64,000 nucleotides of DNA. Source: Actinomadura craniellae. Lineage in GTDB: Bacteria > Actinomycetota > Actinomycetes > Streptosporangiales > Streptosporangiaceae. The notes below the pieces were generated by a model, which saw nothing but the letters and a program-made list of their open reading frames with translations, was not told where the DNA came from and made no database searches. The translations under genes were made by a program, and so were the position numbers. The stretch is taken from the NCBI RefSeq assembly GCF_003289645.1, contig NZ_QLYX01000001.1, forward strand, positions 62,001 to 126,000. The letters are read 5' to 3'. This document shows positions 32,139 to 52,557 of this stretch, one piece after another. Position 1 is the stretch's first letter, and each line of letters begins with the position of its first letter.

Positions 32139-32273
32139 GTGGGCAAGCACGGAAAGAAGGTCCAGTGCGGCATGTGCAGCGGCACCGGGAAGATCAAGAC
32201 CGGCGGCAACGGCAGCGGCCAGAAACAAGAGGTCCAGTGCACCGGATGCGCCGGCAGCGGGAAGCAGGGATGA
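32139..32273 (+). CDS. DnaJ-type zinc-knuckle microprotein (44 aa)
   Basis: A 44-residue product starting at GTG 32139 with two CxxCxGxGK motifs (CGMCSGTGK and CTGCAGSGK) separated by a Gly/Lys/Gln linker, the same half-sites that bind zinc in DnaJ. It is highly basic. The stop overlaps the methyltransferase ATG (ATGA), and GGGAG precedes the start, so both position and motifs support a real gene although it is very short. Possible roles are an RNA- or protein-binding adaptor, or a partner or substrate of the methyltransferase; these are inferences. A longer reading in another frame of the same DNA loses all cysteine motifs. Confidence 0.7.
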   Translation: MGKHGKKVQCGMCSGTGKIKTGGNGSGQKQEVQCTGCAGSGKQG

Positions 32274-33079
32274 AGCCCGCCGACATCCGCCGGGCCGTAC
32301 CGCGCGAGGCGTTCGTCCCCGACACGATCTGGGTCCGCCGCGCTGACGGCTGGGCGGTCCCCCTCAGCCGCCGGGACGCCCCCCGGGAGTGGGAACGCAT
32401 CGTGGCCGCCGACGACGAGCCGGTGATCACGCAGGTGGACGACGGCGCCACCGGCAAGGGAACCTGGCCCACCTCCTCCGGCAGCTCCCCCGAGGTCATG
32501 GCCATCATGCTCGACGCGCTCCAGGTGCGCCCCGGCCTGCGCGTCCTGGAGATCGGCACCGGCACCGGCTACAACGCGGCCGTGCTGGCCACCATCGCCG
32601 GCCCCCGGAACGTCACCACGCTGGAGATCGACGCGACGATCGCCGAGCAGGCACGCACGGCACTCGACCGGGCCGGCCATCCGGTGCACCTCGTGGTGGC
32701 GGACGCCACGCACGGCTACCCGCCCCACGCGCCCTACGACCGGATCATCGTCACCGCCGCCGCCCACCACATCCCCTACGCCTGGATCCGCCAGACCGAA
32801 CCCGGCGGCCTGATCGTGGTCCCCTGGGCACCGACCTTCCACCCCGACTGGCCCCTGTGCCGGCTGACCGTCCACCCCGACGGCACCGCAACCGGACGAT
32901 TCATCGGCCCCTCGTCCTTCATGCCGCTCCGCGGCCAGCGCCTACCACAATCGGTGATCCACGACACCGAACAACGCTGGGCGGACGCAGGTGAGCCCGA
33001 CTGCACCCGCTACGGCATCACCGTCACCGCCCAGGAACAACAGATCTGGCTGGACACCCCCGACACCGTCATCGCCTGA
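32270..33079 (+). CDS. Protein-L-isoaspartate-type SAM methyltransferase
   Basis: A 269-residue class I methyltransferase of the PCMT family. The SAM-binding motif is LRVLEIGTGTGYNAAVLA, preceded by the PCMT-like TSSGSSPEVMAIML and followed by YDRIIVTAAAHHIPYAW. The ATG at 32270 overlaps the zinc-knuckle microprotein stop, implying coupled expression. In actinomycetes such PCMT relatives occur both as repair enzymes and as modifiers of ribosomal peptides; no ATP-grasp partner is visible here. A decayed DUF6879 gene follows directly on the same strand. The substrate is unknown. Confidence 0.85.
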   Translation: MKPADIRRAVPREAFVPDTIWVRRADGWAVPLSRRDAPREWERIVAADDEPVITQVDDGATGKGTWPTSSGSSPEVMAIMLDALQVRPGLRVLEIGTGTGYNAAVLATIAGPRNVTTLEIDATIAEQARTALDRAGHPVHLVVADATHGYPPHAPYDRIIVTAAAHHIPYAWIRQTEPGGLIVVPWAPTFHPDWPLCRLTVHPDGTATGRFIGPSSFMPLRGQRLPQSVIHDTEQRWADAGEPDCTRYGITVTAQEQQIWLDTPDTVIA

Positions 33080-33080
33080 C

Positions 33081-33415
33081 AGTCGGTCGTGCGGCTTCCC
33101 CATCGACCCTCGTGAACGCTGGGGAGACTGGCTCGACCTCGCGGGGGCCACGGTTGCGCGAGGCGTCGAGATCCGGCGTCTTCGGATCGTGTCCGAGCCG
33201 GCCACCCCATTCATCCGGTATGAGTGGGACCTCACCCAAGGCTTGAACCTTGCCGCGGGTGAGAACGTCCGATAGCTGCCTTGTAGCAAGGCGTCGGACC
33301 TCATGCTCCCGGGTAACGACCTGTGGGTTTTCGATGACCACCTCGTCGAGTTCAACCTCTTCGCCGGTGACGGTGAGTAGACCGGCCAGGAACTGTCGAA
33401 GGACCCCTGGTTAGC
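33081..33415 (+). pseudogene. DUF6879 gene remnant 1 (two in-frame stops)
   Basis: Reading one frame through 33081-33415 gives a recognisable DUF6879 domain: RERWGDWLDLAG, RRLRIVSEPATPFIRYEW, GLNLAAGENVR, then a TAG at 33273, then DLMLPGNDLWVFDDHLVEFN, a second TAG at 33378, and GQELSKDP. The N-terminal third and the C-terminus are missing. DUF6879 proteins are commonly encoded beside XRE regulators in actinomycetes. The 3' end is invaded by the tail of the convergent Nudix gene. Confidence 0.75.
33338..33406 (+). repeat. 69-bp DUF6879 repeat, left copy
   Basis: A 69-bp stretch matching 39230-39298 with roughly eight differences, in the same orientation. Both copies encode the HLVEFNLF-GDG segment of DUF6879. 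The divergence is too great for a recent target duplication. Confidence 0.7.
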
Positions 33416-33828
33416 CGGCCTTCAGCGATGGCTTGGTGGATCCGGTCGGTGACCTCCTGGGGCTTGAGGTCGATTCCGTTGAGGCCTTCTGGTGTGAGGG
33501 GGATTTCCTCTAGGAGGTATTCGCCGCGATCGCTCTGGCTGAATTCTGGTCCGCTGCGTTCGTTGAAGTTCCAGGTTGCGATGTGGGCCAGGTAGAAGAA
33601 CTGTTGCTCGCTGTTGGATTCCATGGTGTGGAGGAGGCCGGTGATTTCGGCATGGCCGACGATCTCCTCCCACACCTCGCGGTGCAGCGCGGCTTCGAGG
33701 CTCTCGTCGCTGTCTTGGACTCCGCCGCCGGGCAGGACCCAGTACGCGGGGGTGCCGTGGCGGATCCGTTTGATGGTCAGCATGGTGTGCTGTGGCGTGA
33801 TCAGTACGGCGCGGACGCGTTGCTTCAT
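33352..33828 (-). CDS. Nudix hydrolase
   Basis: A 158-residue Nudix-fold protein. The Nudix box spans about residues 36-58: GVQDSDESL then HREVWEEIVG, giving G-x5-E-x7-RE-x2-EE. It probably hydrolyses a nucleoside-diphosphate-linked compound. The last ~17 residues are translated from the antisense strand of the DUF6879 remnant, so the C-terminus looks acquired by read-through into the neighbouring pseudogene. The ATG at 33828 has GAGG upstream. It is the last gene of the minus-strand kinase/nucleotidyltransferase unit, 29 nt after the SDR stop. GC is lower than in the rhamnose region. Confidence 0.85.
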   Translation of the reverse strand: MKQRVRAVLITPQHTMLTIKRIRHGTPAYWVLPGGGVQDSDESLEAALHREVWEEIVGHAEITGLLHTMESNSEQQFFYLAHIATWNFNERSGPEFSQSDRGEYLLEEIPLTPEGLNGIDLKPQEVTDRIHQAIAEGRLTRGPSTVPGRSTHRHRRRG

Positions 33829-33857
33829 GGATGCCTCATGTTGGGGTGGGACTGGGG

Positions 33858-34640
33858 TTAGTTGAGGAGCCAGCCGCCGTCGACGTGCAGGGACTGGCCG
33901 GTGATGAAGGACGAGGAGGGGGCGGCCAGGAAGGCGACGGCGGCTGCGACGTCTTCGGGGCGCCCGCGCCGGGGGACGCACTGGCGGCGGATCTGTTCTG
34001 CGGGAGCAGTGCGGTGCTGGAGCGGTATGTCGTGCTCGGCGTCGACCTGGATGGCTCCCGGCAGGACGGTGTTCACGCATACCCCGTGCGGACCGAGTTC
34101 GCGGGCCAGAGAACGGGTGAGGCCGTGGAGTCCGGCTTTGGCAGCACTGTAGGCGACGAGACCAGCGCGGCCGGCGCGGGCGTTGACGCTGCCGATGTTG
34201 ATGATCCGGCCCCAACGGCGTTCGGTCATGGCCGGGGTGAGGGCCTGGCATACGCGGTAGTGGGCGGTCAGGTTCACCTCCAGAGAGTAGGCCCATGCGG
34301 CCTCGTCGGTGTCGGGCCAGGGGACGCGAGGGTAGGAGCCGGCGTTGTTGACCAGGACGTCGACGGGCCCGAGTCGGGCGCGGACCTGATCGTGTATCGC
34401 GGTGACCTGCGCGGGGTCGGTGAGGTCACCGTGGACCGCGACGCCCTCGTACGGCAGCGACTGGACGATGACGTCGGCCTCCTCGTGCTGAGCGAGGTGG
34501 TTGACGGCCACTGCTGCTCCGGCCGCGGCAAGGGCGCGGGCGATCTCGGCGCCGATGCCGGTGGCTGCGCCGGTGACCAGCGCGATCCGGCCGTGCAGAG
34601 GCCGGGAGCGAAGAGGGGCTTCACGAACGCTGAGAGGCAC
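33858..34640 (-). CDS. SDR family NAD(P)-dependent oxidoreductase
   Basis: A 260-residue short-chain dehydrogenase. The cofactor motif is VTGAATGIGAEIA (TGxxxGxG about residues 23-30); LVNNAGSYPR, the catalytic Ser of INIGSVNARAG and YSAAK (Tyr 164, Lys 168) are all present, so it should be active. The C-terminus ITGQSLHVDGGWLLN is FabG-like. The start is GTG 34640 with GGAG about 8 nt upstream, overlapping the upstream kinase stop by 20 nt; an ATG at 34700 would overlap by 80 nt. Probably oxidises or reduces an intermediate made by the linked kinase and nucleotidyltransferase genes (inference). Confidence 0.88.
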   Translation of the reverse strand: MPLSVREAPLRSRPLHGRIALVTGAATGIGAEIARALAAAGAAVAVNHLAQHEEADVIVQSLPYEGVAVHGDLTDPAQVTAIHDQVRARLGPVDVLVNNAGSYPRVPWPDTDEAAWAYSLEVNLTAHYRVCQALTPAMTERRWGRIINIGSVNARAGRAGLVAYSAAKAGLHGLTRSLARELGPHGVCVNTVLPGAIQVDAEHDIPLQHRTAPAEQIRRQCVPRRGRPEDVAAAVAFLAAPSSSFITGQSLHVDGGWLLN

Positions 34641-35736
34641 GGTGATCGCTCCGTTCGGCTCGATTGGTAAGCGGGACGGGTGTGGGGTTGAACAGGTCAC
34701 CGAGCGTTGTGGTGGGGTTGTTGCATTCGGCGGCTTTGATCAGGACCAGGAGGAGGTCTTCGCTGCTGAGGAGAGCAGGAGGGAGAACCCCGAGGATGCG
34801 CAGCGTCAGGAAGGCCCGGGCCTGCTGAAGAAACGCATCAGACGGCGTGGCGAGATGGTCGAGGGCGCGGGTGAGGGCGGCGTGACGGCCAATGCCGGTG
34901 TTCCAGGTGTAATGGACGCTGATGTGCCGGTCGGTTTTCGCCAGAGTGCAGTGCTCGATCCAGGGAGCGGTGTGCGGGGAAAGGGCTAGGCGGAGTGTGC
35001 GCTGATAGGTGCCGGGCTGGTAGCGGGGGACAAGCCAGCCGCCCAGGGCCATGAGGTACCACAGGAGGTTGGCGCTCTCGCCGGTGAGGGTGTTACGGCC
35101 GGCATGCTCGAAGTCGAGCCAGCACAAGGGGTCGGCGATGTTCGGTTCGGTGGGGTCACCCTGGGTGATGGCGGTCAGCCACCGGCTGGCCGGATTCAGG
35201 GCGTGCCGGGTACGGCCGATGATGGCGGGCAAGTCCACGACAAGATCACGGCCGTTGGCAGTGAGGGTGTAGCGGCGCAGTTGGCCGGTCGTGATCGTAG
35301 TGCCGGTACCGGGCAGAGTAAGGGGTAGGTCCTGGTGGAGGTACCAGGCGTCGAGTCTTCCGCCGTTCTTGATCCGGTTGGCGTACAGGCCAGGCATGCA
35401 TTGCGAGAGCGGGGCCAGTTCGCCGGTGGTCTCGGCAGCCGCTCGCAGGTCCCGGCAGACACCCTCAAGGAGGGCATGTAGCCGGGGCAGAACGCTCTGG
35501 TCGCGGTCGGCCAGCGCGATTAGGTCGCCGAGCAGGAACCGGCAGCGACCGCTGGCAAAGACATCCTCGTAGATCACCACATGCGACTGCGCCAGAGCCC
35601 GGCGGCCCAGGAGCGCCGGAGCAGAGAAACGGGAGGCGATCTGGTGCCAGCCGCGAACCTCGACGTCGGCCTGCTGCGCGGTGGTGCGCTTGCCGAACAC
35701 CGGCCGGCGGGCCGCCGGTCGCCTGCCGCTGCTCAC
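34621..35736 (-). CDS. APH-like (aminoglycoside/choline kinase fold) phosphotransferase
   Basis: A 371-residue protein with APH-type kinase features: an N-lobe helix DVEVRGWHQIASRF, a catalytic loop TQGDPTEPNI (Asp 194, Asn 199) and a metal motif WLDFEHAGRN (Asp 208). The usual HGD is QGD here, as the histidine is replaced by glutamine. It probably phosphorylates a small hydroxylated molecule. The start is GTG 35736, overlapping the upstream gene stop as GTGA, so translation is coupled to the kinase-nucleotidyltransferase fusion. Not assignable to a resistance phenotype from sequence. Confidence 0.72.
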   Translation of the reverse strand: MSSGRRPAARRPVFGKRTTAQQADVEVRGWHQIASRFSAPALLGRRALAQSHVVIYEDVFASGRCRFLLGDLIALADRDQSVLPRLHALLEGVCRDLRAAAETTGELAPLSQCMPGLYANRIKNGGRLDAWYLHQDLPLTLPGTGTTITTGQLRRYTLTANGRDLVVDLPAIIGRTRHALNPASRWLTAITQGDPTEPNIADPLCWLDFEHAGRNTLTGESANLLWYLMALGGWLVPRYQPGTYQRTLRLALSPHTAPWIEHCTLAKTDRHISVHYTWNTGIGRHAALTRALDHLATPSDAFLQQARAFLTLRILGVLPPALLSSEDLLLVLIKAAECNNPTTTLGDLFNPTPVPLTNRAERSDHRASQRS

Positions 35737-37634
35737 GGTGTGCCCTCCCGCACTGTCGACAGCCACAGCTCCAAGACGAGACGGGCGAGGGCCTCGGCCT
35801 GGTCGTGATCGGTGCGGGCCGCGCTTAGCAGGCCGTTGATCTCGGGATGGATGCCGGTGAGGAGCGTGGTGAGGGCGTCGTCGTCGGCGGGGCATTCGGT
35901 GCCCGCGAACCGGAGCTGGATCTTCGCCAAGAGCGCGGTGACCTTGTACAGGGTGCGTAGGTCGAAGGTGGGGCGCAGAAGCTGGCGGCGGATCTCGATG
36001 GCGGCTTGGATACCGTCGCGGACACTGGCTTCGACATCGTCGGCGGCCGCGGGGGTTGGGAGCGTCAGGCCGGGAGCGCACCACAGGGCGGTCAGCGCTC
36101 CAGTGCCCAGGAGGGCCAGGACGTGCAGCAGGCGGGAGGAGACCACACCGGTGGCGCACTCCTCACGGGTGAGGACCGTCAGGCCCAACTTGACGCCGCC
36201 GAGCTCGCCTTCCAGGCCGGCCAGGATCTCCCGCATGCCAGGAAGCGCGTCTGAGGCGGCAACGACGAAGACGTCAAGGTCGCTCCAGCAGTGCTGGTAC
36301 TTGCCCTGGGCGCCGCTGCCGGTGACGGCCAGCAGGTCGATCAAGGGCTGTGCCCCGGTCATCTGCTCTAGGACGGCCGACAGGTACGCCTCCAGATGAA
36401 CCGGCAGACCAAGGGTGTTCACCGGAACCGTGGACGGTCGATGGGAGGGCCAGCGGATGCCCAGCGCGAGGCGGTCCAGACGTCGCTCCAGCTGAAGGCG
36501 GCTTCCGCTGTTGTCGATGACCTCATGAGCGATGCCGGCGATTTTCTCGGCACCACGGCTGATCTTGGTTCTGTCGCGTTCGGTGACGTCGCGCGCACCG
36601 AGTGGGCTGCGGGCAGCACGCACCGCGAAGGGCGTTTGGAGGTAGGTGATGGTCAGTTGCGGGCCGAGCATCCGTGTGAGTTCGGCGGTGGAGCCGAGGC
36701 TGTGCAGAGACTCGATGCTCACCTGGTCCAGGAAGTGGTGGGCCGCGCAGTACCGGTCCAGAGCGTCCACGATCAGCTCGGCCTGCGTGGCATCGCCGAG
36801 TGCGTACGGGTCGGTGATCTGGCACCGGTCGGCGGTGTCCGCGAGGAGATGGCCGATCTTGAGGCGGGCGTGCCCGTGGCGGGTACGCAGGTACTCGCCG
36901 GCTGTGCTCTTACCGCTCTCGGAGAGCCCACCGAGTGCCACAACACGCACGCCTGCGAGCGCCCGTGTGGGGATGGCCAGGTGGAGCGCGTGCACCCGCT
37001 GGCGGAGTTCGTCCTGGACGGCGATGGTGGGCCGGTCCCCGACGGTGATGACGTAGGCGAACCGGCCGCTTGCTACAAGGCGGTTGACCTGGTCGTGGAG
37101 GTGCCGCTGGTAGGCGGCGTAGGCGTTGGTGACGCGCGCCTCGTGGGACAAACTGCGCCTCGTCCCCTCTGCCGGGTCGGTGCAGTGCACAAGGACGACT
37201 GCATGCTCGGCCGCCTCCGCCGCCTGGAGGTCCCGAACATAGGGGGCCAGCAAAGCACGGGCCCGGTCGGCGGCTGCCTGCGGCGCCAACTGCTCCCGGA
37301 AGGCCACGGTTGCGGCCACGGACGCTTCCAGCATCGGGACGCCCCGATCAAGGAACCGGACCGGTGCTGAGGGGCGGCGATGCGCGCGTTCGAGGTAGGA
37401 GCAGGCCAGCACGTCGACGACCTCCTCCACGAGGCCGGTCTCGAACCACCAGCGACCCATCCCGTTGGCCTTGATCGGTTCCCAGCGGGCGTCGTAACCG
37501 TCGAGCGGGCCGCCGGTGCAGGCGGCCGCACCCATTCGCCGGGCCAAGAGCCTGATTTGTGTGGTTTTGCCGGTGTTATCTGGGCCGCTGAGCGCGATCG
37601 ACACGAATTGCGCCGGTGGGGCGGGAACGGTCAT
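35733..37634 (-). CDS. Tri-domain fusion: two P-loop kinases plus nucleotidyltransferase
   Basis: A 633-residue protein. Domain 1 (about 9-215) is thymidylate-kinase-like, with P-loop GPDNTGKTT (17-25) and an RFLDRG motif near 93-98. Domain 2 (about 229-395) is a second P-loop kinase fold with LGGLSESGKSTAGEYL (Lys 242) and KIGHLL, like NMP or dephospho-CoA kinases. Domain 3 (about 405-633) is a minimal nucleotidyltransferase with TGSGAQGKY and SDLDVFVV (Gly 439-Ser 440, Asp 452, Asp 454) plus a helical tail with LRTLYKVTALLAKIQ. All three active sites look intact. The ATG at 37634 has GGAG upstream. It heads a four-gene unit with an APH-like kinase, an SDR and a Nudix protein. The substrate is unknown. 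Confidence 0.82.
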   Translation of the reverse strand: MTVPAPPAQFVSIALSGPDNTGKTTQIRLLARRMGAAACTGGPLDGYDARWEPIKANGMGRWWFETGLVEEVVDVLACSYLERAHRRPSAPVRFLDRGVPMLEASVAATVAFREQLAPQAAADRARALLAPYVRDLQAAEAAEHAVVLVHCTDPAEGTRRSLSHEARVTNAYAAYQRHLHDQVNRLVASGRFAYVITVGDRPTIAVQDELRQRVHALHLAIPTRALAGVRVVALGGLSESGKSTAGEYLRTRHGHARLKIGHLLADTADRCQITDPYALGDATQAELIVDALDRYCAAHHFLDQVSIESLHSLGSTAELTRMLGPQLTITYLQTPFAVRAARSPLGARDVTERDRTKISRGAEKIAGIAHEVIDNSGSRLQLERRLDRLALGIRWPSHRPSTVPVNTLGLPVHLEAYLSAVLEQMTGAQPLIDLLAVTGSGAQGKYQHCWSDLDVFVVAASDALPGMREILAGLEGELGGVKLGLTVLTREECATGVVSSRLLHVLALLGTGALTALWCAPGLTLPTPAAADDVEASVRDGIQAAIEIRRQLLRPTFDLRTLYKVTALLAKIQLRFAGTECPADDDALTTLLTGIHPEINGLLSAARTDHDQAEALARLVLELWLSTVREGTP

Positions 37635-37680
37635 CCTGCGGCTCCTTTCGCAAGGCGTGCGTGAGGGCGTGGTGCACCGT

Positions 37681-37692
37681 CTGGTCGACCAG
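37681..37692. promoter_or_regulatory. 12-bp palindrome in the divergent XRE/kinase promoter region
   Basis: CTGGTCGACCAG is a perfect palindrome 47 nt upstream of the kinase-fusion start. Possible operator; no experimental support. Confidence 0.3.
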
Positions 37693-37785
37693 TTGAAAAG
37701 GGCTTCACGGTCACCCGGTGCTGTCTCCCACCACAGCGGGCCTCATCGCGTGCATGAAGCCGCTGCCCGCCGCACGCACGCCGTT

Positions 37786-37798
37786 TGCGCGTTGCGCA
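37786..37798. promoter_or_regulatory. TGCGC-GTT-GCGCA inverted repeat, XRE operator candidate
   Basis: A perfect 5-bp-arm inverted repeat with a 3-nt centre, upstream of the XRE regulator and between the divergent transcripts, the usual place for an XRE autoregulatory site. Confidence 0.4.
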
Positions 37799-37871
37799 CA
37801 CGGCCTCGATGAACGGCTACCGCCCGGCTACCGTTGTCAGGCTGATGTCTGTCGGCTCTCCAGGGGCGGCC

Positions 37872-39182
37872 ATGCGCTCACAGGTACCGAACTGGGACTC
37901 CTCCCGGGCACGAATCCTCATCGCCCAGGGCGACGTGGGCGGGCTCATCCGCTGGGCCCGTAGCGAACGCGGATGGCGCCAGATCGACCTCGGTAAGGTC
38001 ACTGGCTACTCCGCATCCGCCGTCAGCCGGCTCGAGACAGCGAAACGTTCGGCCACCGACCTCGACATGCTCAAGGCCTTCGCTGATGCACTGGTCATCC
38101 CCTCAGGTGTTCTGACTGCGGTTTTGGGCGTGGCACCTGCCCAGAGCACTACAGTTGCCAGCGCTGGGTGGCATGCCGAGTGCAAGGAGGATCCGATGAA
38201 GCGCCGGTCCCTGCTCCAGGCCGCCGGCCTCGCCGTGCCCCTCAACGTCATCAACGGCTTCAACGAAGCCCTTGCGCTGCTACCGAGCCCCACCTCGGCG
38301 CCCACCCCGGCTGCCCTGTCCGCCGAGTACCGTACGGCGCGTTCCCTGTTCAATCAGGGAGCTCACACCGAACTCATCAAGATGCTGCCCAACCTCCTGG
38401 CCACCGCCCAGGCCCGTGCCGACGACGGGGGCGAGGCCGACTACGCCAGGCTCGCGGGCTGCTACGACCTGGCGACCGAAGCCTTAGCGAAGATCGGCCG
38501 GTACTCCGCGAGCCGTATCACCGCCGACCGGTCCAACACCTACTCCCGCCTGTCCGGCTCGCCGCTGGTCGCAGCCGCCTCGGCCCGCGCTTTCAGCATC
38601 GTGCTGCGCCACGAGGGCCGCGCCGACACCGCTCAGCGAGTCACTCTCAGCGCCGCCGCCCAGGTCGAAGCGACCGGACTGACGACGCCCGCCCAAGCTG
38701 TGACCTTCGCGCAGATGCTCTGCACCGCGGCCTACACCGCCGCCCAAGCCGGCGACCGCGACCGCGCCCTGGAAATGATCGGCGACGCCGAACGCGCCAC
38801 CGCCCTCCTGCTCGACCAGCCCACCGGCCCTGGCCATGGCTTCAATGTCACACCGGCCTCCGTCACCCTCTACAAGGTCGGAGTGCTGTGGTCCCTGGGC
38901 GACGCCGGCGCGGCCGTTCATGCGGGCCGGGACCTCCGCGCGGCGCAGTTCCCCACCGCCGAACGCCGCGGACGGCTCCACACCGACATGGCCCGAGCCT
39001 GGTGGCAGTGGAAGAAGCCAGAACAAACCGCACACGCCCTCCTGGCCGCCTACCACGCGGCGCCCTCCGAAGTCCGCGACCGCCCTAGCATCCGTTCCAT
39101 CGTCACGGACCTTTCCAAGCGATACCCCCGTACCAGCGGTGTACGGGAACTGATCACCGCCACACGCATCCGCCCCGTATAA
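37872..39182 (+). CDS. XRE-family regulator with TPR-like C-terminal domain
   Basis: A 436-residue regulator. The N-terminal HTH is LIRWARSERGWRQIDLGKVT then GYSASAVSRLETAKR. A helical, TPR-like domain fills about residues 150-430 (ARLAGCYDLATEALAKIG, AQAGDRDRALEMIGDAERAT). Between them the internal Met 109 begins MKRRSLLQAAGLAVPL, a twin-arginine-like segment preceded by AAGGAGG at 38184-38190, so a second, TPR-only product is possible. The start is uncertain: ATG 37785, 37809, 37845 and 37872 are all in frame; the last is nearest the conserved HTH. It is divergent from the kinase/nucleotidyltransferase unit and is its likely regulator. Confidence 0.85.
   Translation: MRSQVPNWDSSRARILIAQGDVGGLIRWARSERGWRQIDLGKVTGYSASAVSRLETAKRSATDLDMLKAFADALVIPSGVLTAVLGVAPAQSTTVASAGWHAECKEDPMKRRSLLQAAGLAVPLNVINGFNEALALLPSPTSAPTPAALSAEYRTARSLFNQGAHTELIKMLPNLLATAQARADDGGEADYARLAGCYDLATEALAKIGRYSASRITADRSNTYSRLSGSPLVAAASARAFSIVLRHEGRADTAQRVTLSAAAQVEATGLTTPAQAVTFAQMLCTAAYTAAQAGDRDRALEMIGDAERATALLLDQPTGPGHGFNVTPASVTLYKVGVLWSLGDAGAAVHAGRDLRAAQFPTAERRGRLHTDMARAWWQWKKPEQTAHALLAAYHAAPSEVRDRPSIRSIVTDLSKRYPRTSGVRELITATRIRPV
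38184..38198 (+). promoter_or_regulatory. Internal ribosome site and start within the XRE gene
   Basis: AAGGAGG (38184-38190) is followed after 5 nt by the in-frame ATG at 38196, better than the site at the proposed gene start. It would make a 328-residue product starting with two arginines and a hydrophobic stretch. Confidence 0.4.
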
Positions 39183-39341: not shown

Positions 39342-39408
39342 CTCCAACGACATCCATCCAGTGTCCTATGGGGAAGCGTAAATAGTGTGCCCTCTGCGAA
39401 CTGAGCCA

Positions 39409-39804
39409 ATGGCGAGGCGGGTAAAGTTACCCTCTCTATTACCAATTCTGTTCCGCAGCCTTGCGCTGATCACATTGCTGAGTCTTGCTCTAGGCTGCAC
39501 AGGTGAAGATGAAGTCCGAGGTAGTGGCCATGTAGCCAGCAAATCTCTGCGGGCATATGTATCACCCGATGGCAGATGTATCGTCTTCACCTTCAACCGG
39601 GGAGTAAACGAAATCGTCGACGTGAAGCTCGACGAGCGACCGAAGGAAGTGGTCGTTCGGCTACAGATAACCGGATCGAACGACCCTGCGGTCGCCATGG
39701 CGGTGGAAGGGTCTGCAACTGTCGATCTGGAAGCTCCGCTGGGAACCCGGGTGGTCCGGACCGAGGAGGGAACGCCCGTCGAGGTACACCGCCGTTCGCA
39801 GTGA
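39409..39804 (+). CDS. Small lipoprotein of unknown function
   Basis: A 131-residue protein not recognised. The N-terminus is basic then hydrophobic (LPILFRSLALITLLSLALGC) with a lipobox-like LALGC, cysteine about residue 30, suggesting a membrane-anchored lipoprotein. The mature part is short and acidic with beta-strand character (YVSPDGRCIVFTFNRGVNEI). GC is lower than its surroundings. An in-frame GTG at 39385 is an alternative start. It sits between a DUF6879 remnant and an orphan RHS fragment, so it may belong to mobile material. Confidence 0.5.
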   Translation: MARRVKLPSLLPILFRSLALITLLSLALGCTGEDEVRGSGHVASKSLRAYVSPDGRCIVFTFNRGVNEIVDVKLDERPKEVVVRLQITGSNDPAVAMAVEGSATVDLEAPLGTRVVRTEEGTPVEVHRRSQ

Positions 39805-39821
39805 CCGCCACCATTTTTCGG

Positions 39822-40016
39822 GACGGTGACGCTGGTGCGGTTGCCCGACGGGTCGTAGCCGAAGCCGACGGTCCGCGGCACGGTGCCGTTCTCGTCCAGG
39901 TCCCTGGCGGTGATCCGCCGTCCGGCCCGGTCGAAGCCAGCGATGGCGCTGGTACCGAGGGGGCCGGTGGCTTTGACCAGCCGCCCGGCAGAGTCGTATT
40001 CCGGGTCCTGGGCGTC
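39822..40016 (-). pseudogene. Orphan RHS-repeat fragment, inverted to the main RHS gene
   Basis: On the minus strand this DNA encodes AGRLVKATGPLG, IAGFDRAGRRITARDLDENG and VGFGYDPSGNRTSVT, nearly the same as AGRMVKATDPLG, VAGFDRAGRQTTARDLDENG and VGFGYDPAGNRTSVT in the large RHS gene (about 49606-49780). No start or extended reading frame belongs to it. The upstream lipoprotein stop lies at its edge. It looks like a leftover from a duplicated or displaced RHS cassette. Confidence 0.75.
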
Positions 40017-40893
40017 AGGTAAGGGTCTGGGCGGCCCTGGCATGCGCCTGTGTTGCGATCTGGTGCAGGATGCTCACCATGTCGCCGCGCGGCCCGGGCT
40101 CCTGGTTGGGAATGCGGATCTCGATGAGGTGGTCCCGGAAGCGGACGACCTGCACCCAGTGCCAGACGTAGCCGGTGGCGTCGACGATCCGGTACGCCCA
40201 CGAGCGGTCGCCGACCGGTGCCGCAGGAAGCGGCTCGACGCGTCCGGCCGCTCCATTGCCGCCGGTCATCCGGGAGCAGTCGCCGGGCGCGCGCTCATCG
40301 TCCAGCAGGCCCAGGACCTGCGGCGGCCCGGTGATGATCGCCTCGCTGAACGTCAGGCTCTCCTGCGGGGTACGGGCATCGGGGCCGAGCGAAGGCCGGG
40401 GCGAGCTCAGCTTGCTGATGGCCAGTTGCACCCCGGGCGTGGTGGTGAAGTCACCGGCGAGCACCACCCACATCCCCGCGGCCCGCTTCCGGCAGGATGC
40501 AGCTCCGGCGAAGGGGCTGCTGATCTGACGGAACCCGAAGAACAGCGACCCGCGGTCCCGGACGGGAAACCGCACGGCCGCGCCGGGAACATCCGGGACC
40601 GCGGCCGGCGCCGCGGACCCGTCCGCCTGGAACCGGGTGAGCAGCGCGGCGACCAGGCGAGGGTCGGCGTCGCCGCTGCCGGGATTGGGGACCCCGGCGT
40701 CGTCGCCGGGCCGTGAGAGCCGCACCCTCAAGCTCGGCGTGGACACCACGGTGTCCGCCGAACGGGACGACGCGGGCACCGGATCCGTGGCGGCCCGCTC
40801 GGCTCCGCAGCCCGCCGACAGCACGACCAGCGCCACGACCGGGACCGCGCGTGCGGCCATGCCCACCGGTGCGTTCCTCAGGACCGAGCGCAT
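40015..40893 (-). CDS. Putative lipoprotein, unknown function
   Basis: A 292-residue protein with a hydrophobic N-terminus ending in VVLSAGC (cysteine about residue 29), so probably exported and lipid-anchored. The mature domain has FPVRDRGSLFFGFRQI, AAGMWVVLAGDFTTTPGVQL and a late tryptophan-rich block GYVWHWVQVVRFRDHLIEIR. The family was not recognised. The ATG at 40893 is used; upstream codons to 40926 add little. The stop abuts the orphan RHS fragment. Function cannot be inferred; the neighbourhood suggests a toxin locus. Confidence 0.65.
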   Translation of the reverse strand: MRSVLRNAPVGMAARAVPVVALVVLSAGCGAERAATDPVPASSRSADTVVSTPSLRVRLSRPGDDAGVPNPGSGDADPRLVAALLTRFQADGSAAPAAVPDVPGAAVRFPVRDRGSLFFGFRQISSPFAGAASCRKRAAGMWVVLAGDFTTTPGVQLAISKLSSPRPSLGPDARTPQESLTFSEAIITGPPQVLGLLDDERAPGDCSRMTGGNGAAGRVEPLPAAPVGDRSWAYRIVDATGYVWHWVQVVRFRDHLIEIRIPNQEPGPRGDMVSILHQIATQAHARAAQTLT

Positions 40894-43450: not shown

Positions 43451-46400
43451 GTGGGACGTTCGCGGTTCGTCGTCTGGCTGGCGGAGTCACAGTGGGTTCG
43501 CCCAGTGGCCCTGCTCCTGGCACTGTCACTGACCGTCGGGCTACTGGGCGGAGGCGGCACCCCGTCGATGCCCTCCCTGATGAACAGGGCCGACGTCGTC
43601 ACCCCTGATCAGCAGGCCGGCACCGCCAAGGGCCGCTCCCACCGCGCCACTGCCCGGCAGACCACCGCCGGAAGCGACGGCCGCCGCGTCATGCCCAAGC
43701 CGCCGAAGGACGTCCTCCCCCTCGACGGCAAGCACACCCCCAAGGTGGTGACCGACACCGCCGCGCAGCGCCCCGCACCCCCGGCCCTCAAGCGGATGCC
43801 GGAGCCGGAACCACCCAAGATCACCGGCTTCGACGAGCAGAAGAGCCAGGAGGACCCCGCCCAGCGCACCCGGTACGCTACCGCTACAAGAACCCCGACG
43901 GCACCTGGACGGGCCGCTTCCACACCCGCCCGGTGAACTACCAGGCCCCGAACGGAGCCTGGCAGCCCATCGACCCGAGACTGGTCACCACCGGCCAGGG
44001 CAACTGGCGCAACACCGCCGACAGCGTGCGGCTGGAGTTCGGCGGCACCGCCACCGGCCGGGACCTGGCCCTCATCGACTTCGGGAACGGCCGCCGCTTC
44101 GGCTTCGGCATCGAGGGCGCGGGCACCACCCCCGGCACGGTCGAGGGCGACGTCATCACCTACGCGAACGTGCGCCCCGGCGCCGACCTGGTGCTGCAGT
44201 CCCTCAACGGCGGCAGCGTCAAGGAGAAGATCGTCCTGCGCTCGCCGGACGCCCCGGCCGAGTGGGAGTTCTCGCTGCGCACCGAGGGCGTCACCCCGCG
44301 GCTCGCCGCCGACGGCAGCGTCGAACTGGTCGACGCCACGGGCAAGGTCATCGCCCACATCCCACACGGCTTCATGATCGACTCCAAGGTCGACCCCCGC
44401 TCCGGCGACCCCGCCCGCTCCGAGCAGGTGACCTACGCCCTGGAGCAGCGCGCCGGGATCTGGATCCTCAAGGTCTCCGCCGACCGGCAGTGGCTGGCCG
44501 ACCCCGCCCGGGTCTACCCCGTGACGATCGACCCGACGGCGGTGTGGAACTACAACGACACCTCCGACACCTACGTCCAGACCGGGTACGGCTCCAGCCC
44601 CTACACCGAGCACGAGCTGAAGGCCGGCACCTACAACGGCGGCGGCTCCAGGGCCGCCACCTACCTGGGCTTCTCCCAGGTCGACAACGAGCTCAGCCAC
44701 GCCAAGATCTACGACGTCGACCTGCAGCTGTTCAACTTCTGGTCCTACTCCTGCACCGCCCGCGCGGTCTCCGTCCACCCGGTCACCCAGAGCTGGTCGC
44801 AGAGCGGCATCGCCAACTACCCCGGCCCCTCCTACGGCGCGGCGCTCAGCTCGCGCAGCTTCGCCAGCGGCTGGATCCCCGAGGGGTCCGGCAGCAGCCC
44901 CTGCCCGGCCAGGTGGCAGGGCATTGACCTCGGCGACAACGGCAACGCGCTGGTCCAGGGCTGGGTGAACGGCACCAAACCCAACTACGGCCTCACCGTG
45001 CGGGCGTCGGGTTCGGACAGCTACGGCTGGAAGAAGTTCGGTTCCCGGGAGACGCCCAACGGCCCGTACCTGACGATCACCTACAGCCCCTACAACGCGA
45101 CGTACGCCTTCGCCGACAACCCGCCCCAGGTGAACCCGCCGATCCTGAACAACCAGGCCGGCAACATCAAGGTGAAGGTCACCAACAAGGGCCACGACAC
45201 CTGGACACCGTCCAACGGCTACAAGCTGACCTACGGCGTGTTCGACAAGTCGGGCAACCAGGTCTGGCACACCGCGGCGGCGACGGCCATGCCGAGCAAC
45301 GTCGCCTACAACCAGACGGCCACGGTGAACGCCCAGGTCAACCCGCTGCCGCCGGGCACCTGGACGATCAAGTTCGACATGGTCTACGACCCGCCCGGCA
45401 GCGGGCTGTGGGCGACCTTCTCCGAGTGGGGCGTGCCGCGCACCGCCCAGGTGCAGGTGACGGTCCCGGACATCCCGAGCCAGCTCAACGAGATGTCCCC
45501 GCGCAACAACTTCCAGGTGAGCACGCTGCGCCCACAGCTGTTCGCCGAGGCGCAGAGCGGGGACACCTGGCCCTCGGCCAACGTCTCCTACCAGTTCACG
45601 GTGTGCGCCCCGCCGTGGGTCTCCTGGGAGTGGTGCGAGAACTCGCCCTGGCAGCAGAACCCCAAGTGGACGCCCCCCGACCGGCTCGCCTGGGGCAAGG
45701 AGTACTACTGGACGGTCTCCGTCAACGACGGCGGCGGCACCACCACCAACGGGCCCTGGTACAAGTTCGTCACCAACCCGCAGCAGCCCACGATCACCTC
45801 GCACCTGGCCGGCCCGGCGTCCGCGGGCCAGGAGTTCGACCACCAGACCGGCAACTACACCACCACGGTCACCGACGCCCACGTCGCCACGGCCGGCCCG
45901 CCGCTGTCGGTGGTGCGCAGCTACAACAGCCTTGACCCGCGCACCGGCGGGGCGTTCGGCGCCGGCTGGAGCACCCGCTTCGACATGCGCGCCGTGCCCG
46001 ACGACGACGGCACCGGCAACGTCGTGGTCACCTACCCCGACGGCCAGGAGGTCCGGTTCGGCCGCAACAACGACGGCACCTTCTCGCCCCCGCTGGGCCG
46101 GACGGCGACGTTCGCGGCCGTGTCCGGCGGCGGCTGGCGGCTGATGGACAAGGCGTCCGTCTCCTACGTCTTCGACGCCTCGGGCCGGCTGGAGAAGGTC
46201 ACCGACCACAGGGGCCGCGAGCAGGTCCTGACCTACGGGACCGGCGGGAAGCTGCAGACCGTCACCGCCACCGGCGGCCGCTCGCTGACCTTCACCTGGA
46301 CCGGCGACCACGTGACGTCGGTGAGCACCGACCCGGTGAACGGCAGCCCGCTCACCTGGACCTACACCTACACCGGCGACCGGCTCACCAAGGTCTGCCC

Positions 46401-49400
46401 GCCGGGTTCCACCACGGAGTGCACCCTCTACGAGTACGAGGGCGGCTCCCACTACCGCACCGCGGTGCTGGACGACAACCCGACCGGCTACTGGCGGCTG
46501 AACGAGCCCAGCGGAGCGACGATCAACAACGTCGTCCCCACGGTCCTGGGCGGCGGCAACGCCACCGCGACCAGCACCACCTACGGCCACACCGGGGCGC
46601 TGACCGGCACCGGCGACACCGCGCTCGGCTTCAACGGCACCACGTCCCGGGTCAGGCTGCCCGACCGCCTGATCAGCCGGGAGGACGGCCACCTCTCGGT
46701 GGAGCTGTGGTTCAAGACCACCGGCAAGGGCACCCTCTTCTCCCACCAGAACGCGACCATGGGGACGGCGTCCAGCAGGTACACCCCCGCCGTCTACATC
46801 GGGAACGACGGCAAGCTCCGCGCCCAGTTCTGGAACGGCTCGGCCAACCCGATCACCTCGGCGGCCGCGGTCAACAACGGCCAGTGGCACCACGTCGTCC
46901 TGTCCGGCCAGGGCGGCAGCCAGACCCTCTACCTCGACGGCGACGTGGTGGGCACCCGCACCGGCGCCATCGACCACCTCAACACCCCCTACGCCTACCT
47001 CGGCTACGGCTGGGCCTCACCGAGCTGGCCGCAGACGGTCGCCGCGCACGGCGCCTTCATGTACACCGGCCAGATCGATGACGTGGCCGTCTACGACCGG
47101 ACCCTGGACCTGGGCGCGGTCCGCGCCCACTACGCCACCCGGCTGGAGGCCCAGCAGCTCGACAAGGTGACGCTGCCCAGCGGCCGGATCCAGGCGATCA
47201 ACACCTACGACGTCGCCAACGACCGGCTGGCCACGCACGTGGACCGCAACGGCGGCACCTGGACGCTGGGCACCCCCACCTACACCGGCACCGCCGACGA
47301 GCCGGTCCGCAACATCACGCTGACCGACCCGCGCAGCGGCACGCTCGACTACACCTACGACCCGCTGCGCGGTAACCGGCTGGTCACCGAGAAGGACCAG
47401 CTCGACCACACCACGACCTACGCCTACGACACCGGCGGCAACATCTCCAAGATCACAGACCGGAACGGCAACGTCACCGACCTGTGGTACGACGAGCGCG
47501 GCAACAAGCGCTACCAGCAGCGCTGCCGCGACGCCGACACCTGCCACCGGGAGTACTGGGAGTACTACGTCAACGCGGCCGACCCGTTCGACCCGCGCAA
47601 CGACCAGCTCACCCAGTACACCGACGGCCGGACCCTCAACCCGTACTCCACCCCGTACGCGTTCTGGTGGCAGTACGACACCCACGGCCAGCAGATCTCG
47701 GCGTTCATGCCGCCGACCGATGACCACCCCTACCGCGGCCTGAACTACACCTACACCGACGGCACCGAGCCCGCGGTCGGCGGCGGCACCACCCCGGCCG
47801 GGCTGCTCAAGACCCGCACCAACAACAGCGGGACCACCGTCCTCACCAACGCCTACAACTCGGCCGGCGACCTGGCCCGCACCACCGACGCCGCCGGCAA
47901 GGTCGTCGAGTTCGGCTACGACGCGCTCGGCCGGGTGACCGGCCGGACCGAGATCACCACCGCCCACCCCGCCGGCGTCACCACCACCTTCGGCTACGAC
48001 GGCCAGGGACGGCTGATCCGGCAGACCGGCCCGCCGGTGCTCAACGAGATCACCAACGCCACCCACACGGCAGAGCTGCGCCGCACCTACGACGCCGACG
48101 GCAACCCGCTCACCCAGACCCTCGCCGACACCACCGGCGGCAACCCCGACCGCGTCACCACCCACACCTACGACGCGCACGGCCGGATCCACACCACCAC
48201 CGACCCCGAGGGCGGGACGGAGACCTACGGCCACGACACGACCGGCGCCCGGACCAGCCTGACCGACGCGGCCGGCGCCCAGTACACGTTCGCCTACTCG
48301 GTGCGCGGCGAGCTGCAGACCCGCACCCTGGAGGACTGGACCGGCAACCCGAACAACCCCAGCCCCGCCGCCGACGTCGTCCTGGACTCCTACGCCTACG
48401 ACCCCGGCGGCCGGCTCGCCTCGCACACCGACGCCATGGGCCGGACCAGGGCGTACGCGTACTACGGTGACGACCTCCTCGCCACCGTCACCGCCCAGAA
48501 CGCCCGGGTGAACGGCTCGACCACCCCGCAGAACGTGCCGCTGGAATCCCGCACCTACGACGGCGGCGGGCGGCTGACCTCCCTGGTCGCCGGCGGGCAG
48601 CAGCGCACCGACTACGTGTACGACGAGACCGGCACGCTGATCGCGGAGATCATCGACCCCGAGGGCGTCGCCCGCCGCACCGACTACCGGCTGAACCCCG
48701 ACAACCAGATCATCAAGATCACCCGGACGGGCGCCGACACCGAGGACGACGACGTCACCGACTTCACCTACGACGACCTGGGCCGGATGACGGGCCAGAC
48801 CGTCGACAACGGTGACGAGAACCTCACCACCACGCTCACCCTGGACCAGCGGGGCCTGGTCACCCAGGTGGTCGAACCCCGGGGGAACGCCCCCGGCGCC
48901 ACCCCCGCGAACTACGCGACCACCATGCGGTACGACGCCGCGGGACAGCTCGTCCAGGTGACCGCGCCCCCGGTGCAGGTGGTCCGCGGCGAGGGGACCC
49001 CCGCCACCGCCCAGCCCGTCACCCGGATGGGCTACAACGCCGGCGGCGAGCAGACCCACGTCACCGACCCCGAGGGACGCACGGTCACCACCGGCTACGA
49101 CAAGGCCGGCCGGCCGATCTCAACGACCTCTCCCGCGTACACCCCGCCGAACGGGACCGCCCTCACCCCGCAGGTCACCACGGAGTACGACGCCGCCGGA
49201 CGGATCATCGAGGCGACCAACGCCCGCGGCCACACCACCAAGCACTTCTACGACGTGCTCGGCAACCTCGTCCGCACCGAGGACCCCAAGCTCGCCGACG
49301 AGAGCCAGCCCGGCAAGTGGCGGTTCGAGTACGACCTGCTCGGCGAGCAACTGGCCGCCACCGACCCGACCGGCGCCCGGGTCGAGGCCACCTACGACGA

Positions 49401-52400
49401 CCTGGGCCGCCAGATCACCCAGACCGTCCTGGAGCGGTACCCGACGCCCGCCGCGTACACCACGCACACGGCCTACGACCCGGCCGGGAACCCGACCTCC
49501 ACCACCCGGCCCGCCGGGGACTCGATCACGAACGTCTACAACGGCGCAGGCGACCTCACCGAGGTCACCAACGCACTCGGCAAGACGTCCACCTTCGGCT
49601 ACGACTTCGCCGGCCGGATGGTCAAGGCCACCGACCCGCTCGGCCACAGCACCGTCGCGGGCTTCGACCGGGCCGGCCGGCAGACCACCGCTCGGGACCT
49701 GGACGAGAACGGCGCTGTGCTGCGGACCGTCGGCTTCGGCTACGACCCGGCGGGCAACCGCACCAGCGTCACCTCCGCCGAGGGCCACACCAAGCAGTAC
49801 GCCTACGACGCGGGCAACCGGCTCACCCAGCTCGTCGAACCGGTGTCGGCCGGCACGTCCATCACCACCGCCTTCGGCTATGACGCCGGCGGCCAGCGCA
49901 CCCGGCTGACCGACGGCCGCGGCAACACCACGGTCACCACCTATAACACCCTCGGCCTGGTCGAGGCGGTCATCGAACCCGTCACCAGCGCCTACCCCAC
50001 CCTGGAGGCGCGTTCCTGGACGACCTCCTACGACGGCGCGGGCAACCCCGTCTTCGAGGACAAGCCCGGCGAGGTGACCGTCACCCGGACCTTCGACGAG
50101 CTCGGCCGGCTGACCAGGGAGGCCGGGGTCGGTGGCACGGGGACCACCCCTGATCGGCGGTTCGGGTACGACCTGGCGGGCCGCAGGCTCCGCGTCTCGG
50201 CCCCCGACGCCGACATCCTCACCACCTACAACGACCGCAGCCTGCCGCTGTCCACGATCAGCCCCGGCGGCCAGACCGCCCAGTTCGCCTACGACGCCAA
50301 CGGCCGCCCCACCAGCCGCACGGACGCGGCCGGGACCACCGGGTTCTCCTGGAACGGCGCCGACCTGCTGGACGCGGTCACCGACCCCGCCACCGGCTAC
50401 GCGACCACCCGGGCCTATGACGACGCGGGACGGCTGACCGACCTCATCTACGGAGCCGGCGGAGCACAACGCCACTACGACTACGACCCGCTCGACCGGC
50501 CGACGACCGACGAGCTCACCACGCCTGGTGGGGCCACTCTGGCCAAGATCACCTACGCCTACGACGATGACGACCGGCTCACCCAGAAGACCACCACCGG
50601 CACGGCTGGGGCGGGCACGAACGGCTACGAGTACGACCACGCCGGCCGCCTGACCAAGTGGACAGCCCCCGGCGGCGCCATCACCGACTACGGCTGGGAC
50701 GCCGCCGGCAACCTCGTCCAGGCCGGCTCGACCACCTACACCTACAGCGCACGCAACCGCCTGACCTCCGACGGCACCAAAACCTACGAGTACTCCGCCC
50801 GCGGCACCCTCCGCACCGACGGGCCGGTCGCCATCGGCTACGACGCCTTCGACCGCCTAGTCAGCGAAGGCAACATCAGGTACGCCTACGACGGCCTGAA
50901 CCGCGTCGCCAAACGCACCGACACCTCGACGGGCACCACCACCCGCTCTATCTACTCCACCGATGGCAACGACCTGTCGGCGATCCTCAATCCCGACGGC
51001 ACCGTCCAGTCCGCCTTCGCCCGCGACCCAGGGGGTGGCCTGCTCAGCGTTCAGTCCGGCAGCCAGTCCCATCTGGCGTACTCCGACCGCCACGACGATC
51101 TGACCGCCACCTTCAACCCCGCTGGTACGACCCTGACCGGCTCCAAGTCCTACGATCCCTTCGGTAAGGTCACTGCCAATGGCGGGGCCGGTACTCCACT
51201 GGGTTACCAGGGTGAATACACCGACGGCACCACTGGCCGCGTCAACATGCACGCCCGCTGGTACACCCCTGGGACGGGAAGCTTCGCCTCCCGTGACGAC
51301 TGGACTCTGGAACCTGACCCCAGCGCTAGGGCGAATCGCTATACCTACACCGGCGGCGATCCTCTGTCCCGCATCGACCCATCCGGCCATGATTGGCTTG
51401 ATTTTCTCAACCACACACTACAACTGGCTATCAAGCCCAGCCCTATGGGGTGGGTTGTGTGGGGTGCGGAAGCAATGTGGTGGATCATAAAGCCCAAGCC
51501 GGTAGCCGCCCATCCGTGTGAGATGCCAGGGGGTCCCCCGTGTCCTGTAGTTAGGGGGGATGAGGAGCCTAAAGGTGGTCACCATCAAATCTATTACGAG
51601 ACAGATTCCATCTATAGAAAAGGTGGCCCTGTATGTGATTGGCGTTGTGTAGCTGTAGGGGGAGCGGGGGCGGCAGCAGCAGCGGCGGCGGCAGCAGCCC
51701 GGGCAGCGATGCAAGCGGCGTTGGCTAGGGCTGCGGCCCTCGCTCCGGCACCTCGACCACCGACAAAGCCGGGAATCAGCCAAAAAGATCTGAACAAGAT
51801 CCGCGACATTGCGGAAAGGGCGGTTCAAGTTGCCGGCGGCATAAACAAGGTCGTCGATATAATCAACGGGATCGATAATGCTCCCGATGCCCGCCCTGAT
51901 GAGTCGCCAGTTGATGGCGGGGGAGGTGGAAACCGCGACAGGGGCTGCACTCCTGTGAATGACTACGGGCCGGCAGTTCCTTACGAAATATACAAGGCCG
52001 CTCCTAATGGGAGGATGGCCAAGGATGGTGTTTATAAGAAAGGACTAGCGCACCCCCAGGGGATCTATGTGAGGTTCTGTAGTGCGCAGCAGTTGGGTGG
52101 TGGGAGTGCGGCAAATCCAAGCCTGCTTCCTCTAGGGTTTCCCCTCCCAGATGAAGCTACTGGAAAGTCGCGCAATCCAATCTATTCGAAAAAGCGTGGG
52201 GGTGGTTATAAGTGGGCTCGCTGTCATCTGAGAGGGGACAGTTTGGGGGGATCGGGGGATCTGCTCCAGAATCTGGTAACTTGCTATCAGACTCCAGTAA
52301 ATAGTCCTACGATGAGTAAGTATGAGGAAGACGTTGCCAGGGCAGTGAAACGCAATCAGATAGTGGACTACTGGTCCAGGCCAGTCTCTCCAGCGACTGG

Positions 52401-52557
52401 AGGTCCTCCACTGTATATACGCATTACTGCAAGGGGGAGATATCGCAATGGAGCGCCCGGTATAAACTTCGATGTGTGTATACTGAACAGCAGGTTCGGG
52501 TATCGTCCGGACAATAAAAGGGCTATGGTGATTCGAGGTGACGTTTGTGGATCTTGA
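43451..52557 (+). CDS. Secreted RHS-repeat polymorphic toxin with C-terminal nuclease (frameshift near 43870)
   Basis: A ~3,000-residue toxin. The N-terminus from GTG 43451 (GGAGG 5 nt upstream) has a signal or anchor segment (VRPVALLLALSLTVGLLGGG). One base appears missing at the CCC of 43869-43871: upstream frame ends QRTR, downstream continues PVRYRYKNPDGTW. Without the shift, only a GTG at 43933 would start the rest and export would be lost. Then follow a DNRLRE-type domain (about 44540-45090), DUF6531-like HQTGNYTTTVTD, a LamG domain (about 46450-47140), many YD repeats, and the RHS core end (GRVNMHARWYTPGTGSFAS). From about 51400 the sequence is AT-richer and variable: a poly-Ala stretch and a DNA/RNA non-specific endonuclease-like domain (WARCHLRGDSLGGSGDLLQN). 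The stop overlaps its immunity gene. Confidence 0.85.
51660..51745 (+). repeat. Poly-alanine-coding low-complexity tract in the toxin tip
   Basis: GCA/GCG-rich DNA encodes about ten consecutive alanines and then alternating Ala/Arg/Met, forming a probable flexible or helical linker between the RHS shell and the nuclease. Confidence 0.6.

Follow-up and report, generated by a model that had tools for sequence, protein, structure and literature searches.

Several described systems resemble parts of the gene set reported here. In puromycin biosynthesis a short-chain dehydrogenase/reductase (SDR) acts on a nucleotide and a Nudix hydrolase trims it (Pur10/Pur7), and in the FR-900098 and fosfomycin pathways a nucleotide is attached and later removed. 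We identified a four-gene cassette in a 64,000-nucleotide stretch of the Actinomadura craniellae genome (contig NZ_QLYX01000001.1, positions 62,001 to 126,000; hereafter the window) that encodes a predicted kinase-kinase-nucleotidyltransferase fusion protein, an APH-like small-molecule kinase, an SDR-family dehydrogenase/reductase and a Nudix hydrolase. As in the puromycin pathway, the SDR and the Nudix hydrolase adjoin nucleotide-phosphorylating enzymes. However, the core of the cassette has no aminotransferase, peptide ligase or methyltransferase, and the two P-loop kinases and the MNT-type nucleotidyltransferase are additional. The cassette also resembles the FR-900098 and fosfomycin strategy in pairing a nucleotidyltransferase with a hydrolase potentially able to take the nucleotide off again, but its core contains no phosphonate genes and its nucleotidyltransferase is of the MNT type.

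A longer form of the cassette in related genomes adds a phosphoribosyltransferase (PRT), a GT9 glycosyltransferase, a DUF4254 protein and a histidine phosphatase. This form suggests PRT-type coupling, a phosphatase and nucleotide intermediates, as in the angustmycin (agm) pathway (PMC8599513). In addition, a relative of the second fusion kinase sits in an agm-like Bradyrhizobium cluster. However, neither an allulose-phosphate epimerase (or other sugar-phosphate epimerase) nor a pyrophosphokinase was recognised among the four window genes or the gene families common to at least three loci, such enzymes being found in the Bradyrhizobium cluster only, and within the fetched stretches a PRT was found at all 24 long-type loci and at none of the 22 loci of the window's own type. 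The pairing of DUF4254 and GT9 seen at all 24 long-form loci recurs on a Burkholderia multivorans plasmid, but no kinase, nucleotidyltransferase or PRT is annotated beside it there. The plasmid's DUF4254 gene is 1752 bases long and is flanked by two GT9 genes (L070:8732-12692). No described pathway or defence system matched the cassette. In the open-licence PubMed Central (PMC) literature, none of the papers listed for the gene combination or for DUF4254 describes it; the one paper naming DUF4254 does so a single time, and a term search of PMC12648386 gave no mention of nudix, kinase, nucleotidyltransferase or glycosyltransferase.

The four open reading frames (ORFs) are arranged in tandem on the minus strand, spanning 33352 to 37634 of the window, and overlap or nearly touch, in agreement with the coupling that an earlier note on this DNA had reported. 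The fusion gene (633 amino acids, 35733–37634) starts with ATG at 37634, with AAAGGAG upstream, and its stop shares a four-base overlap, GTGA, with the GTG start (35736) of the APH-like gene (371 amino acids, 34621–35736). The SDR gene (260 amino acids, 33858–34640) has its GTG start (34640) inside the 3' end of the APH-like gene, and the Nudix gene (158 amino acids, 33352–33828) begins with ATG at 33828, 29 bases past the SDR stop. Median gaps across loci are –4 bases between fusion and APH-like genes, –16 between APH-like and SDR genes, and 30 between SDR and Nudix genes. The G+C content of 2-kb bins over the four genes is 68–69%, compared with 72–73% in the bins on either side of the 32–42 kb stretch and a range of 60–77% over the whole window. 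The ORFs are real genes, backed by homologues in other genomes. Genes in relatives were called with a simple custom caller; its codon model had been trained on genes of the window, these four among them, so the caller provides no independent evidence for them, and the starts and small ORFs it gives in relatives are uncertain.

We compared 53 loci (the window, L027, L028–L043, L065–L067 and L102–L133), leaving aside four others (L064, L069, L071 and L072). The complete core set is present at 47 of the 53, and a 48th (L032) is cut by a contig end. This recurrence argues against a chance arrangement and bears out the proposal of an undescribed conserved unit. The loci comprise 22 window-type, 24 long-type, two of a third form, three fusion-only and two relics (L043 and L133). 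In all 22 window-type loci (fusion-APH-SDR-Nudix) the APH-like, SDR and Nudix genes adjoin the fusion gene; the SDR match is partial in L109 and L111, and the Nudix gene is on the other strand in L067. The long type consists of Nudix, the thymidylate-kinase-like part (separate or fused), DUF4254, kinase 2 with the nucleotidyltransferase, PRT, GT9, APH-like, SDR and histidine phosphatase. PRT, GT9 and APH-like genes are found in 24 of 24 such loci and SDR, Nudix and histidine phosphatase in 23, the exception being L032, which runs off its contig. Every long-type locus has DUF4254, which the 27 remaining non-relic loci all lack; nor do those 27 have a PRT, GT9 or histidine phosphatase (E ≤ 0.01, fetched stretches).

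The third form (L128 and L129) has the order SDR-fusion-thymidylate kinase-APH-Nudix and adjoins a regulator of about 1000 amino acids, with BTAD, NB-ARC and TPR domains in L128. BTAD/NB-ARC regulators are usual at secondary-metabolite clusters. On the other side, L128 carries an NTP_transf_5 protein and ABC transporter genes, and L129 carries exopolysaccharide-type genes.

The earlier note had named two observations that would speak against a unit: neighbours not conserved with the fusion, and a fusion found alone with a known function. The neighbours are conserved with it. The fusion does stand alone at three loci (L130:7958-9976, L131:8060-9898 and L132 from 8905), but the kinase motifs of these copies are degenerate and no function is known for them. 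All three are missing the kinase-2 P-loop pattern and the DN and DRG of the first kinase and retain the nucleotidyltransferase motif. For kinase 2 this was seen by direct reading of the L130 and L131 sequences. The nucleotidyltransferase part, with ratios of nonsynonymous to synonymous substitution (dN/dS) of 0.40–0.60, is not more constrained than the kinase parts (0.24–0.44). The three fusions lie near an EF-Tu gene (397 amino acids, sequence read in L131), and EF-G and ribosomal-protein genes are probably nearby, judging from size.

The unit is real, conserved and mobile. Pairwise fusion identities are correlated with those of the APH-like protein (Mantel r 0.970, 18 loci), the SDR (0.975, 17 loci) and the Nudix hydrolase (0.962, 17 loci), with none of 5000 shuffles reaching these values in each case. 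The genes are thus co-inherited, although shared species history alone could explain such correlations. When 50 fusion cores were placed in a midpoint-rooted tree, the window fusion (from family f1) nested in a clade of family f20 with support 0.99, apart from L029, L030 and L067 of its own family, a placement indicative of horizontal transfer. Integrase or relaxase genes, some partial, were found in the fetched flanks of seven of 22 window-type loci (L102, L103, L104, L106, L109, L111 and L124) and of three of 24 long-type loci (L035, L118 and L120), counts that stand without a background rate; two of the calls were confirmed by Pfam. Using a simple Nei-Gojobori calculation on chosen pairs (eight window-type and three fusion-only pairs for the fusion, five window-type pairs for the other genes), we obtained dN/dS values of 0.06–0.38 in all window-type pairs tested but one. 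The cassette genes are mostly under purifying selection.

The earlier note had listed three kinase folds, a nucleotidyltransferase, a dehydrogenase and a Nudix hydrolase, and had judged their key residues intact. Pfam, profile comparisons and motifs agree with these predicted assignments. The fusion appears to consist of a thymidylate-kinase-like P-loop domain (approximately residues 1–220), a dephospho-CoA/AdkA-like kinase (229–400) and an MNT/Pol-beta nucleotidyltransferase with a C-terminal extension (400–633). The window protein gives weak Pfam matches (AAA_18, E 1.7e-4; NTP_transf_2, 0.29), and NCBIfam does not recognise it. In the 23 rows of the alignment, some of which do not cover all the domains, NTP_transf_2 (PF01909) matches 12, AAA_18 matches eight and Thymidylate_kin (PF02223) matches three, the last with a best E of 9.5e-4. 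Like thymidylate kinases, domain 1 carries a P-loop (GPDNTGKTT) and a DRG motif. The P-loop, the DR motif and the profile similarity together place it in the thymidylate/nucleoside monophosphate kinase superfamily, as predicted from sequence. Domain 2 has the motifs GGLSESGKST, IESLH and KxxRGA. In a comparison of the fusion profile with PDB, AdkA-like 3lw7 matched at E 5.5e-5 and the dephospho-CoA kinase CoaE at 0.019, and domain 2 matched one true CoaE with a profile probability of 94.8% over 67 columns. Its P-loop and these similarities assign it to the predicted dephospho-CoA/AdkA-like superfamily. Domain 3 contains TGS...SDLD and is predicted to be an MNT nucleotidyltransferase by its GS-x(n)-SDxD motif. 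Of 54 called proteins, 51 have this motif; it is missing from the relic L043, the true CoaE L068 and the fragment L069. PDB matches to an aminoglycoside nucleotidyltransferase (E 0.24, not significant) and to CdnD (E 0.026) were also obtained.

The APH-like protein is not recognised by Pfam or NCBIfam, with PF01636 matching none of 18 members at 0.1. Its profile matches that of 12 genuine APH proteins encoded in the same genome over 212 columns (E 4.3e-5, probability 69%), compared with E values of 0.14–0.4 for three unrelated profiles. The motifs QGDxTxxN, with N five residues past the catalytic D, and WxD are invariant in all 18 members. A glutamine replaces the histidine of HGDxxxxN, and the catalytic loop and metal-binding D of the APH superfamily are present. 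In L105 the gene called APH (627 amino acids) contains APH-like and SDR parts in one open frame, a possible fusion. Pfam clearly assigns the SDR, which has TGxxxGIG and YxxxK, and the Nudix hydrolase. The latter keeps the catalytic E and the REUxEE residues of the canonical Nudix box and has V instead of the canonical G that follows them.

The fusion has relatives in 17 of the 297 family genomes sampled, in 18 of 345 from the order (one a background CoaE), five of 394 from the class, 34 of 392 from genus g87 (probably Streptomyces) and nine of 40 from genus g47; these samples overlap. None was found in 50,697 phage records, and a viral-contig scan with the APH alignment as query returned no APH-like relatives. 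Three Streptomyces plasmids carry a fusion fragment, one of which (L069) is 59% identical, and two plasmids (L071 and L072) carry APH-like remnants. Plasmid searches with GT9 and PRT gave no relatives. The background match in the order sample, from genome G344, proved to be an ordinary dephospho-CoA kinase and was dropped.

What the cassette makes is less certain than its existence. We tentatively favour the interpretation that the cassette, of which the window carries the short form, moves horizontally among actinobacteria and assembles or matures a small molecule resembling a nucleotide. The PRT of the long form would make an N-riboside 5'-phosphate, and GT9 and DUF4254 would attach a sugar. 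In both forms, the two P-loop kinases of the fusion may further phosphorylate a nucleoside phosphate or sugar phosphate, and the nucleotidyltransferase may use a hydroxyl as the acceptor for a nucleotide. The APH-like kinase would phosphorylate another hydroxyl, the SDR would oxidise or reduce the activated intermediate, and the Nudix hydrolase would cleave the pyrophosphate link, freeing the product. The short form would have to obtain its scaffold from another part of metabolism.

A free-standing relative of kinase 2 (29.5% identity by BLAST; profile probability 99.6% over 165 columns) is found in a Bradyrhizobium plasmid cluster. Its neighbours are PEP-mutase-like, aconitase-like and isocitrate-dehydrogenase-like genes, a PRT, a phosphoribosyl pyrophosphate (PRPP) synthetase, a ribulose/allulose-phosphate epimerase family member and an inositol-phosphatase family member. 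Angustmycin C is made by enzyme classes matching the PRT, PRPP synthetase, epimerase and phosphatase of this cluster (PMC8599513). Orotate and purine phosphoribosyltransferases lead the PDB matches of the long-form PRT, with adenine phosphopsicosyltransferase also among the matches (E 5.8e-4). A match of this PRT to PF15609, which would suggest kinship with the Ter system, lies below cut-off. The cluster around the kinase-2 relative and the relatives of the PRT therefore suggest that kinase 2 and the long form as a whole act in nucleotide-type chemistry, by reactions that would be as proposed above. The long-form relatives of the cassette, with their added PRT, GT9 and phosphatase, also strengthen the note's suggestion of a nucleotide-sugar-like or other small molecule. 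The Bradyrhizobium japonicum plasmid (NZ_CP066352.1) holds a 17-gene run (L064:3343-18561) that combines phosphonate-type genes (PEP-mutase-like, HMGL synthase, aconitase and isocitrate-dehydrogenase-like) with angustmycin-like genes and the kinase-2 relative. It is possibly an undescribed phosphonate-nucleoside cluster.

Several observations weigh against the biosynthetic interpretation. No PRT or GT9 lies beside the short form, and elsewhere in the window genome the best PRT match has an E of 0.008 and no GT9 was found, so that no scaffold-making step is visible and the short form would have to be self-sufficient or fed by a common metabolite. Nucleotidyltransferases of the MNT type usually act on proteins, antibiotics or RNA and are not usually part of nucleoside building. 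The SDR and Nudix sequences indicate no substrate, and no transporter or resistance gene was recognised among the families common to at least three loci. The similarity of domain 1 to thymidylate kinases (profile probability 93.6%) extends over 24 columns only. AlphaFold models had a mean predicted local distance difference test (pLDDT) score of 34.6 for the APH-like protein and 36.6 for the fusion, from two- and three-sequence alignments of the window and L027 loci only, and with scores this low the fold assignments rest on the sequence profiles. Finally, the one pair that departs from purifying selection, L125/L127, has dN/dS values of 0.43–1.99 at very low dS.

Resistance or detoxification is an unlikely alternative, in which the APH-like kinase and the nucleotidyltransferase would inactivate an imported antibiotic or toxic nucleoside and the SDR and Nudix hydrolase would complete its breakdown. 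APH and MNT enzymes are the classical antibiotic-modifying pair, and the aminoglycoside nucleotidyltransferase match in PDB, short of significance as it is, the patchy distribution and the mobile-element neighbours are in keeping with this role. However, inactivation does not need two additional fused nucleotide-type kinases or the PRT, GT9 and DUF4254 of the sister form, and the Pfam APH model matches none of the 18 APH-like members. If the mobility and patchy carriage in two genera are instead taken as marks of anti-phage or stress signalling, the fusion would make an unusual nucleotide on infection and the Nudix hydrolase and SDR would tune it. We consider this slightly less probable again. 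The operon does have a helix-turn-helix (HTH) regulator, seven of the 22 window-type loci are flanked by an integrase or relaxase, and PADLOC profiles match the Nudix hydrolase (candidate PDC-S07, 2.9e-8), the fusion (candidate PDC-M51B, 0.0035) and the regulator (HTH_VI, 1.3e-5; capH, 2.6e-4; RmrA, 4.5e-4), although these matches may reflect common folds only and that to capH is an HTH match. Against it, no effector or sensor was recognised, the phage records contain no relatives, and the window fusion has no PADLOC match at 0.001, with two of the 23 alignment members matching one candidate, PDC-M05A. Nor does the cassette qualify as a cyclic-oligonucleotide-based anti-phage signalling system (CBASS) with its CD-NTase, as at the same threshold the window fusion has no PADLOC match and no effector-like family is among those common to at least three loci. 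The note's idea of a nucleotide-based defence signal has little in its favour apart from the mobility of the unit.

Repair or processing of RNA ends, including those of tRNA, appears very improbable. The kinase and nucleotidyltransferase would mend the ends and the Nudix hydrolase would decap them, and the combination of a kinase, an MNT nucleotidyltransferase and a Nudix hydrolase is known from such processing. However, the core genes show no recognisable RNA-binding domain, ligase or nuclease, and the SDR, GT9, PRT and DUF4254 do not fit. We regard as least probable of all an ordinary metabolic operon that yields no joint product and is held together by chance or shared regulation. The SDR and Nudix hydrolase are common folds and no member has a known substrate, but 46 window- or long-type loci in two families share the set in almost identical order, the distances are congruent, and the same domains are found both fused and split.

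A bolder reading, which we think improbable, is that the cassette makes an unfamiliar nucleotide, doubly phosphorylated or nucleotidylated, that serves as a mobile weapon or infection signal. If this were true, the product would be a nucleotide natural product or defence messenger of a class not seen before, and the cassette would pass among actinobacteria on mobile elements in short and long forms. The gene set is a recurring mobile one, probably mostly of Streptomyces, whose core fusion is barely known to Pfam and whose APH-like protein is known to neither Pfam nor NCBIfam. Since the sister forms differ by the PRT/GT9/DUF4254/phosphatase block and the fusion-only copies have degenerate kinases, the chemistry is testable by comparison.

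The regulator gene (436 amino acids, 37872–39182, plus strand) is divergent from the fusion gene and encodes an XRE-type HTH protein matching Pfam HTH_31. The earlier note had described a divergent XRE/TPR regulator; the HTH and the orientation hold, and no TPR match to the window protein was found in Pfam. BLAST relatives of the regulator lie near four other window-type loci (L027, L028, L067 and L110) and the relic L043. A promoter scan of the intergenic region between the two genes (37635–37871, no strand assigned) gave no sigma-70-like site. Another putative regulator, of about 439 amino acids and with sub-threshold TPR matches only in Pfam, is shared by 13 of the 22 window-type loci.

Other genes accompany the cassette in subsets of loci. 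In five window-type loci (L104:7951-8136, and likewise L065, L102, L103 and L124), an ORF of 60–61 amino acids resembling a membrane protein lies just upstream of the fusion gene. L066 and ten other long-type loci are accompanied by a divergent HTH regulator, an isochorismatase-family hydrolase and an FAD-oxidoreductase-like gene. In six loci of genus g47 a TauD-type dioxygenase and a second Nudix gene are nearby instead.

On the Nudix side of the window cassette, a PCMT-like methyltransferase gene (32270–33079, plus strand) resembles the methyltransferase family of ATP-grasp peptide maturases, scoring 228.7 of the 380 bits required, and is absent from the gene families common to other loci. 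Past the regulator lie an RHS-repeat ORF (39366–40043, minus strand) and a gene for a 2874-amino-acid protein (43933–52557, plus strand) whose first 1600 residues contain RHS repeats and a laminin-G-like domain. This RHS-containing stretch is a possible insertion hot spot.

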